This document shows, in pieces, positions 28,567-31,150 of a DNA stretch of 64,000 bases (its first letter is position 1; each line of letters starts with the position of its first letter). Source of the DNA: Verrucomicrobiia bacterium DG1235. GTDB lineage: Bacteria; Verrucomicrobiota; Verrucomicrobiia; Opitutales; Opitutaceae. A program made the position numbers and the translations under genes. The notes under the pieces are model-generated. The model did not search any database, was not told the DNA's origin, and worked only from the letters and a program-made list of their open reading frames with translations. The DNA is taken from contig DS990592.1 of assembly GCA_000155695.1 (NCBI GenBank), forward strand, positions 248,001 through 312,000, read 5' to 3'.

Positions 28567-29640
28567 TCAAAGGATGAGCATCGCGTCTCCATAGCTGAGA
28601 AAGCGGTATTTCATGTTGATAGCTTCCGCGTAAATCTCTTTAAGCCAAGCAATTCCGTCCGTTCCGTTCGGGTCGAGGAAGGACGATACGAGGCAGAGAA
28701 GAGTGGAATGCGGCTGGTGGAAATTTGTGATCAAGGCGTCGACTCCGCGGAAGTCGCGGGGCGGATAAATGAAAATGTCTGCCTCGCCGACAAAATTGCC
28801 GGTTTGGATGGTGGTGGACTTGGCGAGGTAGTCTTCGATGCTGCGGACGCTGGTGGTGCCGACACAGACGCGACGGCGGGAATTTGGGGTGCGGATAGCG
28901 TTCTGGGTGGATTCTGGGATTTCGTAGATTTCGCGGTGGATCTGGTGGTCTTCGACGCGTTCGCACTGAATTGGCTTGAAGGTGCCCATTCCGACGTGGA
29001 GAGCGAGATCGTGGAAGGTGGCGCCTTGGGCGGCGAGTTTTTCGACGATTGCTGGGGTGAAGTGCAGGCCGGCAGTGGGAGCAGCTGCGGCGACTGACTT
29101 GTCGGCGGCAGCGTAGACGGTCTGGTAGCGTTCCTTGTCGGAATCGTCGCGGTCGTCGGATTTATCGCGGGCGATATAGGGGGGGAGCGGCATTTTTCCG
29201 AGCTCATCGGCGAGGGCGGGAACGGAAGCGTGTCGCTCGAGGGAGAAACGGACGCGGTATTCGGCCTTTTCGTTTTTCTCGACTACGGACGCGGAAAAGA
29301 AGCCATCGCGAGCGAAGGTAGAGCCGACGGGTAGTTTTTTACCGGGACGAATGAGGGTCCACCACTCAAGCCCGTCATTTGAGGCTGGGCGAAGGAGGAG
29401 GCATTCTACAGCTCCTCCCGTCTGGCGCTGGGCGTATAGGCGAGCGGGAAGGACGCGGGCGTTGTTGCGGAAGATGGAGTCTCTGGCTCCCAGGAATTCG
29501 GGTAGGTCGGAAAAGCGCCGGTGTTCGATGCGGCGTTCGGATCGGTGCACGACAAGTAAACGGGATGCGTCTCGGGCGCTGGCAGGCTCTTGGGCGATGC
29601 GCTCGTCGGGCAGGTGGTATGCGAAAAGTGAGCTGTCCAT
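28567..29640 (-). CDS. queA: S-adenosylmethionine:tRNA ribosyltransferase-isomerase
   Basis: 357 residues. QueA transfers the ribosyl part of SAM to preQ1-modified tRNA during queuosine synthesis. Family marks: LPDERIAQEPASARDASRLLV at the start, FRNNARVLPARL, PPYI, YQTVYA, APTAGLHFTP, LHVGMGTFKPI, CVGTTSVRSIE and ITNFHQPHSTLLCLVSSF. The start MDSSLFAYHLP (29640) matches the usual beginning; a GTG at 29655 would add five residues. No tgt or queC-E genes adjoin it. It is the first gene downstream of the tRNA-Tyr/repeat region; tRNA-Tyr(GTA) is itself a queuosine substrate. Confidence 0.96.
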   Translation of the reverse strand: MDSSLFAYHLPDERIAQEPASARDASRLLVVHRSERRIEHRRFSDLPEFLGARDSIFRNNARVLPARLYAQRQTGGAVECLLLRPASNDGLEWWTLIRPGKKLPVGSTFARDGFFSASVVEKNEKAEYRVRFSLERHASVPALADELGKMPLPPYIARDKSDDRDDSDKERYQTVYAAADKSVAAAAPTAGLHFTPAIVEKLAAQGATFHDLALHVGMGTFKPIQCERVEDHQIHREIYEIPESTQNAIRTPNSRRRVCVGTTSVRSIEDYLAKSTTIQTGNFVGEADIFIYPPRDFRGVDALITNFHQPHSTLLCLVSSFLDPNGTDGIAWLKEIYAEAINMKYRFLSYGDAMLIL

Positions 29641-29723
29641 TTGGTTGGGGCACAAAAAAACGATCGGGAAAGGTCGTTTGTCGATGAATTTTGTTGGTAA
29701 GTTGCCTCATGTCCAAGCGATTG

Positions 29724-29843
29724 GAAAGTGGTGGTGGGAACAGGATTGGCTCCGCTTCGCTTAGGTCCTTCGGACTCATGCTGCGCATGCCCCACCTGCG
29801 CTTTGCTGCGTCGAACCTTTTCGGTTCTCATCCTGTTCCATGA
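29724..29843 (-). repeat. tRNA-Tyr-derived hairpin repeat, copy 1
   Basis: 120-bp unit, 94% identical to copy 2 (seven differences, no gaps, by hand). In the tRNA direction it opens with GGAACAGGAT and closes with ATCCTGTTCC followed by CACCACCA, so the ends pair and mimic the T-arm/acceptor of tRNA-Tyr with a CCA tail. The inside is a chain of mini hairpins, e.g. GAACC/GGTTC, CATGC/GCATG and GTCC/GGAC with 3-5-base loops. A 24-base stretch (29724-29747) is identical to the 3' end plus flank of the real tRNA. Confidence 0.85.
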
Positions 29844-29870
29844 AGGCGTTCTTTCCTTCGGTCACAAAAA

Positions 29871-29890
29871 AAGACCCTCGCGCGGGTCTT
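29871..29890 (-). terminator. Terminator after tRNA-Tyr and repeat copy 2
   Basis: 7-bp stem AAGACCC/GGGTCTT, six-base loop, followed on the minus strand by a U-rich run (complement of the A run 29865-29872). It lies between the two repeat copies, so copy 2 would be inside the tRNA-Tyr primary transcript. Confidence 0.85.
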
Positions 29891-29896
29891 GTGTTT

Positions 29897-30016
29897 GAAA
29901 GTGGTGGTGGGAACAGGATTGGCCTCGCTTCGCTCAGGTCCTTCGGACTCATGCTTCGCATGCCCCTTCTTCGCTTTGCTGCGTCGAACCTTTTCGGTTC
30001 TCATCCTGTTCCATGA
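29897..30016 (-). repeat. tRNA-Tyr-derived hairpin repeat, copy 2
   Basis: Same structure as copy 1, located between tRNA-Tyr and the terminator. The loop of the CATGC hairpin is GAA here and GCA in copy 1, while the stem is unchanged, which hints at selection on RNA structure. The 24 bases 29897-29920 equal 30070-30093 of the tRNA end. Confidence 0.85.
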
Positions 30017-30074
30017 CGCGTTCTTTGAAAAGGGTTCGATTGGAACTGGTTCGACGCATTCCTGAAATGGAAAG

Positions 30075-30160
30075 TGGTGGTGGGAACAGGATTCGAACCT
30101 GTGTAGGGTTTCCCCAGCAGATTTACAGTCTGCCCTCGTTGGCCGCTTGAGTATCCCACC
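30075..30160 (-). tRNA. tRNA-Tyr (GTA)
   Basis: 86 bases including an encoded CCA. Acceptor GGTGGGA/TCCCACC, anticodon arm GCAGA-CTGTAAA-TCTGC giving anticodon GTA, long variable arm as expected of a class II tRNA, T-loop GGTTCGAATCC, discriminator A. Confidence 0.97.
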
Positions 30161-30297
30161 GACCTGAGAAAGGTGGCTACACTCCGAGTTTTGGTTTAAA
30201 GTTCAAGTGTAAATTTGAGAAAAGTTCGAGGGGCTTGATTTGTCCAAAACGAGAGGTTTCGAGTGGTTCTCTGAGCTTGTTTTCGCTCATTCGGGCG

Positions 30298-31017
30298 CTA
30301 GAGCAGGCCGGACTCTTGGAAACTGTAGTAGCCGCGGGAGCGGGGATCGTGCTCGACGGAACCGACTACGATGTGGTCGAGCAGGTCGATGCCGAGGACT
30401 TTTGAGGACTCGCGGAGCTGGCGGGTGACTTTTATATCGGCGGCGCTGGGAGCCGGATCTCCGCTGGGATGATTGTGTACACAGATGACGGCGGAAGCTC
30501 CTTGTCGAATGGCGTCGCGGTAGACTTCCCGCGGATGCACGAGGCTGTTGCTGGCGGTGCCGGAGGTGATTTCGACTTTTTTGATGAGGCGATTCTTTCG
30601 GTTGAGCGAAAGGGTCCAGAACTTTTCGACATCGAGTCCATGAGTGTCGCGTCTCATGAAATCGAATACAAGATCGGGACTGTCGAGTATGGGAGCTGAA
30701 ACGGGTGAGCGTTCGCGCACGCGTCGACAGATTTCGACAATGGTTACTAGCTGGAGGGCTTTGACTTTGCCGATGCCTTTGATGGCACGGAATTCGGCGT
30801 CGCTCCACTTGAGGAGGCCGTTGAGAGAGCCGGATTCTTGGAGTATCTCTGAGGCGACGCTGAGTACATTGCGGCCTTTGCTGCCGCTTCGTAGAATCAT
30901 AGCGAGGAGTTCGGTGTCGCTGAGGCTTTGGGGTCCTTGAGCTTCGAGACGTTCTTGCGGGCGTTCGTTTACCGATAGATCGGCGAGCCTCGGAGTGAGG
31001 TAGGTCGATGTGGGCAT
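30298..31017 (-). CDS. radC: RadC-like JAB-domain protein
   Basis: About 239 residues. An N-terminal helix-hairpin-helix (ERPQERLEAQGPQSLSDTELLAMILRSGSKG and IKGIGKVKALQL) precedes a JAB/MPN metalloprotease-like domain with E-x-n-HPREVYRDAIRQGASAVICVHNHPSGDPAPSAAD, in which the His-x-His and Asp metal ligands are intact. RadC was named for DNA repair but its true role is unclear. I used ATG 31017 (MPTSTYLTPRL), as upstream codons back to 31101 are not RadC-like. It starts opposite the ThuA-like gene. Confidence 0.93.
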   Translation of the reverse strand: MPTSTYLTPRLADLSVNERPQERLEAQGPQSLSDTELLAMILRSGSKGRNVLSVASEILQESGSLNGLLKWSDAEFRAIKGIGKVKALQLVTIVEICRRVRERSPVSAPILDSPDLVFDFMRRDTHGLDVEKFWTLSLNRKNRLIKKVEITSGTASNSLVHPREVYRDAIRQGASAVICVHNHPSGDPAPSAADIKVTRQLRESSKVLGIDLLDHIVVGSVEHDPRSRGYYSFQESGLL

Positions 31018-31150
31018 GGATGTGGGTAGGAGGGTAGAGTTGGTCGAGTAAAACTGTGGGGACAGCATTGGGACTAGAACGTAAAGTCGCTTGCTATACA
31101 ACCCTGAGAAGTATTATGCCCTTGGTTACCAATTAGTGAGGGAGAGCAAT

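Follow-up and report, generated by a model that had tools for sequence, protein, structure and literature searches.

Closest described systems

The closest known system to the repeats presented here is RtT RNA, or RttR, of the Escherichia coli tyrT-tyrV genes (Rfam RF00391), where RttR is annotated as a 171-nt noncoding RNA whose end lies exactly at a copied CCA. Excerpts of one paper report RtT RNAs seen on Northern blots and by sequencing, RtTs with other E. coli tRNA operons, and RtTs with tRNA-Asn and tRNA-Lys in Actinobacillus, placed upstream of those genes (PMC4986893). Parts of two further papers mention a possible stringent-response role of rtT and its likeness to BIME elements (PMC2965389) and list rttR as REP containing (PMC12306157). 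The association of RtT with several tRNAs is partly in print already; a search of the literature available to us on RtT and tRNA-linked repeats returned nothing on tailored ends or taxonomic breadth. Apparently new here are the breadth of the family, its tailoring to each tRNA and the indirect signs of structure at the DNA level.

Other short repeats and tRNA-linked elements invite comparison. CGTC-tagged REPs are described, in the excerpted text, as short, palindromic, noncoding chromosomal repeats that are interspersed and have stems of 8-9 bp starting with complementary AT (PMC3733652). The short common palindrome CGTTA-N9-TAACG also lies right after tRNA genes, and the available part of its description mentions no tRNA-end copy. 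Integrative elements that target tRNA genes leave the tRNA 3′ end directly repeated on both sides of the insert and the tRNA intact.

Two elements behind tRNA-Tyr

The window, by which we mean the whole 64,000-nt stretch analysed, comes from Verrucomicrobiia bacterium DG1235 (contig DS990592.1, positions 248,001 to 312,000), and all positions below are counted within it. Its features of interest are as follows; model R1 is described in the next section.

30298-31101: RadC-like ORF upstream of tRNA-Tyr (ORF list)
30075..30160, minus strand: host gene, tRNA-Tyr(GTA) (ARAGORN; Rfam tRNA, 54.9 bits)
30075-30093, minus strand: last 19 nt of tRNA-Tyr, source of both element copies
29902..30015, minus strand: element 1, nearest the tRNA (R1, 105.1 bits; Rfam RtT, 43.1 bits; repeat finding)
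30003..30012, minus strand: 5′ strand of stem P1 of element 1, GGAACAGGAT (sequence; P1 covariation in 33 relatives)
29986..30000, minus strand: P2 hairpin of element 1, GAACC-GAAAA-GGTTC, inside the motif GATGAGAACC...GGTTCGACG (invariant or nearly invariant columns in alignment A1)
29902..29920, minus strand: element 1 copy of the tRNA-Tyr 3′ end, 19 nt, identical to 30075-30093
29866..29889, minus strand: terminator-like hairpin and T-run between elements 1 and 2 (read from sequence)
29729..29842, minus strand: element 2, of the same anatomy as element 1 and 93% identical to it (R1, 98.6 bits; Rfam RtT, 43.0 bits)
29830..29839, minus strand: 5′ strand of P1 of element 2, GGAACAGGAT (sequence; P1 covariation)
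29729..29747, minus strand: element 2 copy of the tRNA-Tyr 3′ end, 19 nt, identical to 30075-30093
29653..29678, minus strand: terminator-like hairpin and T-run past element 2 (read from sequence)
28567-29655: QueA-like ORF downstream (ORF list)

Repeat finding placed the units at 29721-29843 and 29894-30016 (93% over 123 nt), with a third copy of 26 nt at 30068-30093 and a spacing of 173/173 nt between the units and the tRNA end. Together with side-by-side reading it bore out the two 120-bp units and seven differences of a preliminary description of this locus; the reading added one more difference among the 3 nt outside. That description gave each unit a 24-base copy of the tRNA end. The copy is real, but its tRNA-derived part is 19 nt (AATCCTGTTCCCACCACCA, tRNA position 58 to CCA in our own numbering), after which come a few shared nucleotides (CTTTC). 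The acceptor-like stem that it proposed likewise stands in part: each unit opens with 10 nt (GGAACAGGAT) complementary to the tRNA end, and the closed stem spans the T-stem and about 3 nt of the acceptor, not the whole acceptor stem. The P1 5′ strand of element 1 complements its own 3′ copy and, equally, the tRNA 3′ end.

In order, a unit consists of GGAACAGGAT, GAG (sharing its G with the hairpin that follows), GAACC-GAAAA-GGTTC, GACG, a mini-hairpin chain in which the loops are GAA or GCA, then GCC and finally the 19 nt AATCCTGTTCCCACCACCA. The chain was seen correctly in the preliminary description, as were the one mini-hairpin whose loop changes between GAA and GCA with its stem kept and the position of the copy nearest the tRNA, between the tRNA and the terminator-like hairpin at 29866-29889. 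The hairpin past element 2 is probably the original terminator of tRNA-Tyr, since genomes of the genus without the element have similar hairpins after their tRNA-Tyr. Three ORFs of 137-141 aa (minimum, 100 aa) overlap element 2 and extend into queA, two of them on the element strand.

The tRNA-Tyr gene sits between ORFs that we take, from their sequences, to be RadC-like and QueA-like (28567-31101). Of 8 genomes of the genus, 7 have a QueA-like protein after tRNA-Tyr and 7 a RadC-like one before it. tRNA-Tyr is a substrate of the QueA modification pathway.

Like RtT behind its tRNA-Tyr, the window copies stand directly behind a tRNA gene on the same strand, end in the tRNA end with CCA (19 nt), carry the GGATGAGAA...GGTTCGAC motif and a closing stem with ATCC, and have hairpins with GNA (GCA) loops. 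Because they score 43.1 and 43.0 bits against RF00391, below the Rfam gathering cut-off of 45, we call them RtT-like and do not file them under that family. Two relatives pass the cut-off (L008, 51.0 bits; L062, 58.5 bits), and the E. coli sequences reach 132.9-137.5 bits. The internal hairpins of the window elements are unlike those of RtT, a terminator-like hairpin separates the two units, and elements of this kind lie behind several isotypes with ends matched to each.

With the CGTC-tagged REPs, as excerpted, the elements share short palindromic noncoding sequence, and CGTC adjoins the P2 palindrome on the opposite strand; they lie at tRNA 3′ ends, however, and P2 is a 5-bp stem (GAACC/GGTTC) beginning with G-C, which falls outside the definition of those REPs (PMC3733652). 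Nor, across 100 family genomes, does a Y1 transposase accompany the repeat, as it does in REP/RAYT systems. The repeated tRNA 3′ end that flanks an insert and the intact tRNA recall tRNA-targeting integrative elements; unlike these, the units encode no integrase, are too small (120-173 nt), have self-complementary ends and form tandem arrays. Rfam sX4 was considered and rejected, its matches being sub-threshold and overlapping tRNA-Ser.

Occurrence in related and distant genomes

Searched by blastn with the unit, the genome itself yielded just the two window copies and the tRNA end; a sample of 150 genomes from the taxonomic family, this one counted, gave matches in 21. Of 28 match loci retrieved from other genomes (L004-L031), 23 hold a tRNA gene, of type Tyr, Glu, Pro, Ser or His. 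From 33 Opitutales-type elements, picked for a good tRNA copy, alignment A1 was made and covariance model R1 built; one window element is inside R1, so its match to window element 1 holds by construction. At E ≤ 0.01, R1 matched 50 of 100 family genomes (41 at 0.001 or better, 9 between 0.001 and 0.01). Its 12 matches in the genome itself comprise the two behind tRNA-Tyr, one behind tRNA-Ser(GCT) that stands after a terminator-like hairpin, arrays of three after tRNA-Gln(CTG) and of three after tRNA-Leu(CAA), weak matches at tRNA-Ser(CGA) (31.1 bits) and tRNA-Pro(TGG) (28.4 bits), and an orphan (36.1 bits) after a tRNA-Ser-like 3′-end fragment (L277, C6:4565115). These 12 matches and the 50 family genomes rule out a local duplication only. 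They also correct the preliminary view of the unit as derived from tRNA-Tyr, in that the element kind extends to several other tRNAs.

The exact pattern GGATGAGAACC-N(2-12)-GGTTCGACG, scanned over a named genome collection, occurs in at least 116 stretches, 80 of them listed. A same-strand tRNA or tmRNA gene lies upstream within 1.5 kb in 97 of the 127 matches listed (Ser, 27; Gln, 24; Tyr, 11; Pro, 9; Glu, 7; Met, 6; Leu, 5; tmRNA, 3; Asn, Gly, Val, Arg and His, one each); the other 30 include contig ends, places with no tRNA called and some apparent chance matches in coding DNA. Among the matches listed, the motif follows tRNA or tmRNA genes in Verrucomicrobiota, Proteobacteria, Gracilibacteria and DPANN archaea, with record titles of the tRNA-linked loci naming Opitutales, Gamma- and Alphaproteobacteria, Gracilibacteria, Nanoarchaeota and Pacearchaeota. 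A looser pattern matched 33 of 150 family genomes and 14 of 288 genomes of a phylum sample, and a reversed-pattern control matched none.

Several loci depart from the common arrangement. Three tmRNA-linked motifs in gammaproteobacterial records (L039, L067 and L083) lie about 50 nt past the gene, beyond a terminator-like hairpin, and none of these three elements holds a copy of the tmRNA end. Six DPANN archaeal records (L044, L051, L068, L072, L074 and L075) have the same opening motif after Leu, Gln and Gly tRNAs. Orphan elements in family genome G048 (L301 and L305), like L277 in the genome itself, have a tRNA-Ser-like 3′-end fragment ahead of them and no called tRNA; L301 and L305 share similar DNA ahead of the fragment, as if an integrated island had split the tRNA from the element.

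Whole units also occur in tandem arrays, spaced at 137 bp in L013 and 149 bp in L157, and the anatomy of a unit runs T-arm sense, antisense, then split sense. Both features suit a passive by-product of replication, in which forks stalled at a tRNA gene would switch templates along the palindromic T-arm and make sense-antisense-sense copies and tandems without selection or mobility. The motif GATGAGAACC...GGTTCGAC, however, is common to distant genomes, and in Opitutales so are GGAGATGGG and CCAATCC; because independent accidents would not yield a motif shared by distant genomes, we consider this origin improbable.

Ends matched to the host tRNA

The 3′ terminus of an element is usually a copy of the host tRNA 3′ end, from about position 58 to CCA, with a complementary 5′ arm. 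Among the 97 matches listed, 61 share an exact match of at least 12 nt with the end of their own tRNA, 38 of these being exactly 19 nt (A58 to CCA), and 36 fall short of 12 nt; ends of other isotypes matched in 1 of 1,940 comparisons. The 19-mer is identical to the tRNA in 49 of the 88 elements with a recognisable copy, and P1 reaches at least 8 bp in 29 of these 88 vs 26 of 1,150 isotype-swapped combinations. At archaeal loci the copy, without CCA, reaches about the called tRNA end.

A covariation check found the closing stem to covary in A1; with the recurrence at other tRNAs, this takes away the ground on which the preliminary description would have dismissed the unit, namely no occurrence elsewhere and no covariation. 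Both-side cells in P1/P2 numbered 75 vs 29 in shuffles, and the score was 0.311 vs 0.105 (at most 0.144 when slid); two of the five measures, both-side-change pairs (402/500) and further pair types (119/500), were not above shuffles. Four of the five P2 pairs never vary in A1, and P1 is imperfect, with 69 mismatches among 285 variable pairs. At the 16 disagreements between tRNA and copy, the 5′ arm pairs only or better with the tRNA in 11, with the copy in 2 and with neither in 3; several of the copies are decayed or misaligned, and we attach no weight to this split.

Presence and absence at orthologous loci

All eight sampled genomes of the genus have tRNA-Tyr, and elements stand behind it in four of them; the other four hold no element in the 330 nt inspected and have a terminator-like hairpin after the tRNA instead. 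The G144 element is flanked by the tRNA on one side and, on the other, by a terminator that G427 has too, without an element; CCA and terminator are 205 and 21 nt apart in G144 and G427, respectively. Trees of QueA and of RadC, with 7 genomes in each and branch supports of 0.39-0.99, interleave genomes whose tRNA-Tyr locus is occupied with those where it is empty.

RtT varies similarly in E. coli. At megablast sensitivity, 4,680 of 5,426 complete genomes matched, with a median of 2 places and up to 9, and 746 gave no match. Strain B1 has no element behind tyrT and tyrV: the junction is at CCA, after which comes, with a few base differences, the sequence that K-12 has past the last unit. In strain JJ1886 (L220), tyrT has no RtT annotated behind it; what directly follows is a cluster of genes, including ones for fatty-acid and sterol desaturase family proteins.

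Related cores follow tRNA-Leu(CAA) in three genomes of the genus, and some elements, such as these, look stable in place. Core similarity averaged 0.305 for the same genus and tRNA (14 pairs), 0.230 for the same genus and another tRNA (75 pairs), 0.196 for the same tRNA in another genus (72 pairs) and 0.183 where both differed (725 pairs). With the 43 cores used (one under 45 nt was dropped), 268, 125 and 139 of 2,000 permutations reached the observed clustering by genome, tRNA and genus, respectively, which shows neither pure descent with the tRNA nor free spread. The pattern of presence and absence could reflect deletion alone.

Vehicles were sought in several collections. The exact pattern occurs in one contig only of a viral collection and RtT in one record only of a phage collection, that record being titled Salmonella enterica; 23 records of a plasmid collection hold a match, all of them called non-mobilizable and several chromosome sized. 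An element borne by phages or plasmids is unsupported by these collections. Mobilisation by RAYT/Y1 transposases was also set aside: Y1_Tnp is present in 89 of 100 family genomes whether or not they have elements, and G048, with 8 R1 matches, has zero Y1_Tnp. No enzyme that moves the element was found in these searches.

The preliminary description had offered a tRNA-targeting mobile repeat as one reading. In its favor, the elements recur at several tRNA 3′ ends, their ends are matched, P1 covaries and orthologous loci differ in presence; because the searches turned up no moving enzyme and almost no copy of the motif in the viral collection, we infer mobility from the presence and absence pattern. 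The elements might instead be debris or satellites of integrative elements that target tRNA genes, moved in trans by a tyrosine recombinase. Such an origin would account for the tRNA 3′ end directly repeated on the flanks of each unit, and the orphans in G048 and in the genome itself follow tRNA 3′-end fragments that resemble att sites; the orphans are more simply read, however, as islands inserted between tRNA and element. The unit lacks an integrase, and the scarcity of the motif in viral contigs and of RtT in phage records also tells against debris. To our knowledge, a complementary 5′ arm is not an att feature. We judge integrative debris very unlikely.

Pairing as DNA or as RNA

RNA is not known to have any special stability in mini-hairpins with GNA loops. 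As DNA, according to an excerpted source, GNA loops with G-C pairs form exceptionally stable mini-hairpins, with a Tm of 78°C for GCGAAGC (PMC4686876). Among 219 mini-hairpins in 94 cores, 95 have GNA triloops (GAA, 35; GCA, 28; GGA, 17; GTA, 15) vs 4.0 expected from dinucleotide shuffles, and C-G closes 91 of the 95; the opposite strand of the cores has two. GNRA tetraloops are enriched too in the same cores, although far rarer (10 vs 2.3 expected). By group, in a somewhat different set of cores sorted by record titles that we recognised, GNA loops account for 32 of the 82 gammaproteobacterial hairpins, 32 of the 57 from the Verrucomicrobiota set, 47 of 135 among the unsorted and 1 of 10, from 9 cores, in archaea, where they are few. 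A small control of E. coli 16S and partial 23S rRNA gave 1 GNA and 1 GNRA loop in 49 hairpins.

The variable P1 pairs of 57 elements comprise 207 Watson-Crick, 69 mismatched and 9 G-U pairs, so that G-U makes up 9 of 78 non-Watson-Crick pairs (11.5%) vs 20.6% in shuffles, a modest difference. In host tRNAs all 32 non-Watson-Crick pairs are G-U (82 CCA-ended tRNAs, with 574 acceptor and 410 T-stem pairs; 14 of 96 distinct tRNAs were left out for want of CCA), a control that is biased because ARAGORN calls only well-paired genes. By a rule of our own that has no shuffle control, a terminator-like hairpin with a T-run lies between the tRNA and the element in 39 of 107 first-in-line elements. Together, the GNA loops, the G-U share of P1 and these hairpins favor pairing at the DNA level; each is indirect by itself, and the counts come from related rather than independent cores.

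The same evidence bears on an RNA function, in which an RttR-like, CCA-ended small RNA would be cut from the tRNA primary transcript and, through its stem and tail, would compete for tRNA 3′ processing or act in amino-acid starvation. The annotated E. coli RttR, ending at the copied CCA, speaks for it, as do the excerpted reports of a possible stringent-response role (PMC2965389) and of RtT RNAs on blots and by sequencing (PMC4986893). In the window, reading of the sequence shows no terminator between the tRNA and element 1, and single-strand RNA folds of the two units reach z-scores of -2.5 and -3.4 against dinucleotide shuffles (2 and 1 of 200 shuffles equal them); P1 also covaries. Against it stand the terminator-like hairpins ahead of 39 of 107 elements, that at the genome's own tRNA-Ser(GCT) included, the 95 GNA loops vs 10 GNRA, the absence of any preference for G-U in P1 and the 746 E. 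coli genomes without a match at megablast sensitivity. Because the G-U control is biased and GNRA loops are enriched as well, and in view of what PMC4986893 states, we rate the DNA reading and its stronger form (below) slightly lower than at first and the RNA function slightly higher, the latter as a possibility that we would still call doubtful. The preliminary suggestion of a tRNA-mimicking RNA fares accordingly: an RNA of this kind is annotated in E. coli, but the acceptor stem is mostly unformed, and the loops, hairpins and G-U share point elsewhere.

Interpretation and significance

On balance a DNA cassette that comes and goes seems to describe the elements better than a tRNA-mimicking RNA does. 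Our best explanation, held with moderate confidence, is a noncoding, DNA-folded repeat that is gained and lost at tRNA 3′ ends, with RNA as its read-through product. RtT-like elements are noncoding cassettes of roughly 95-180 nt filling the space after the CCA of tRNA genes; their recurrence, position, tailored ends, closing-stem covariation, tandem units and presence or absence at orthologous loci are what the data show directly. The tRNA-sense strand would adopt a conserved fold as single-stranded DNA, in which C(GNA)G mini-hairpins follow one another inside a closing stem matched to the end of the tRNA itself. Units may be gained, lost and multiplied when recombination or template switching uses the repeated tRNA end, a handle that would also keep the ends of the element matched to its host tRNA. 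Transcription through the element, as with E. coli RttR, would give a read-through product that has perhaps acquired a role in some hosts.

A stronger form of this explanation, which we put forward as speculative and on the whole unlikely, is that bacteria and DPANN archaea both contain a class of DNA cassettes, folded as single strands and specific for tRNA 3′ ends, that insert precisely behind a tRNA gene and rewrite both arms to the new host tRNA. The logic would resemble that of integron cassettes, except that attachment would be at the tRNA end and no enzyme is known for it; E. coli RtT would be one relic. In the boldest reading, by analogy, an integrase acting on the folded strand would bring the unit behind a new tRNA.

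Until now RtT RNA has been taken for a by-product, at the RNA level, of tRNA operons. Should the same cassette indeed occur, with re-matched ends, behind many tRNAs of several bacterial phyla and some archaea, its CCA ending may stem from copying and not from tRNA mimicry. The function of RtT would then become a question at the DNA level too, namely, what places RtT and why at tRNA 3′ ends, and the elements offer a natural set of GNA mini-hairpins with changing stems.
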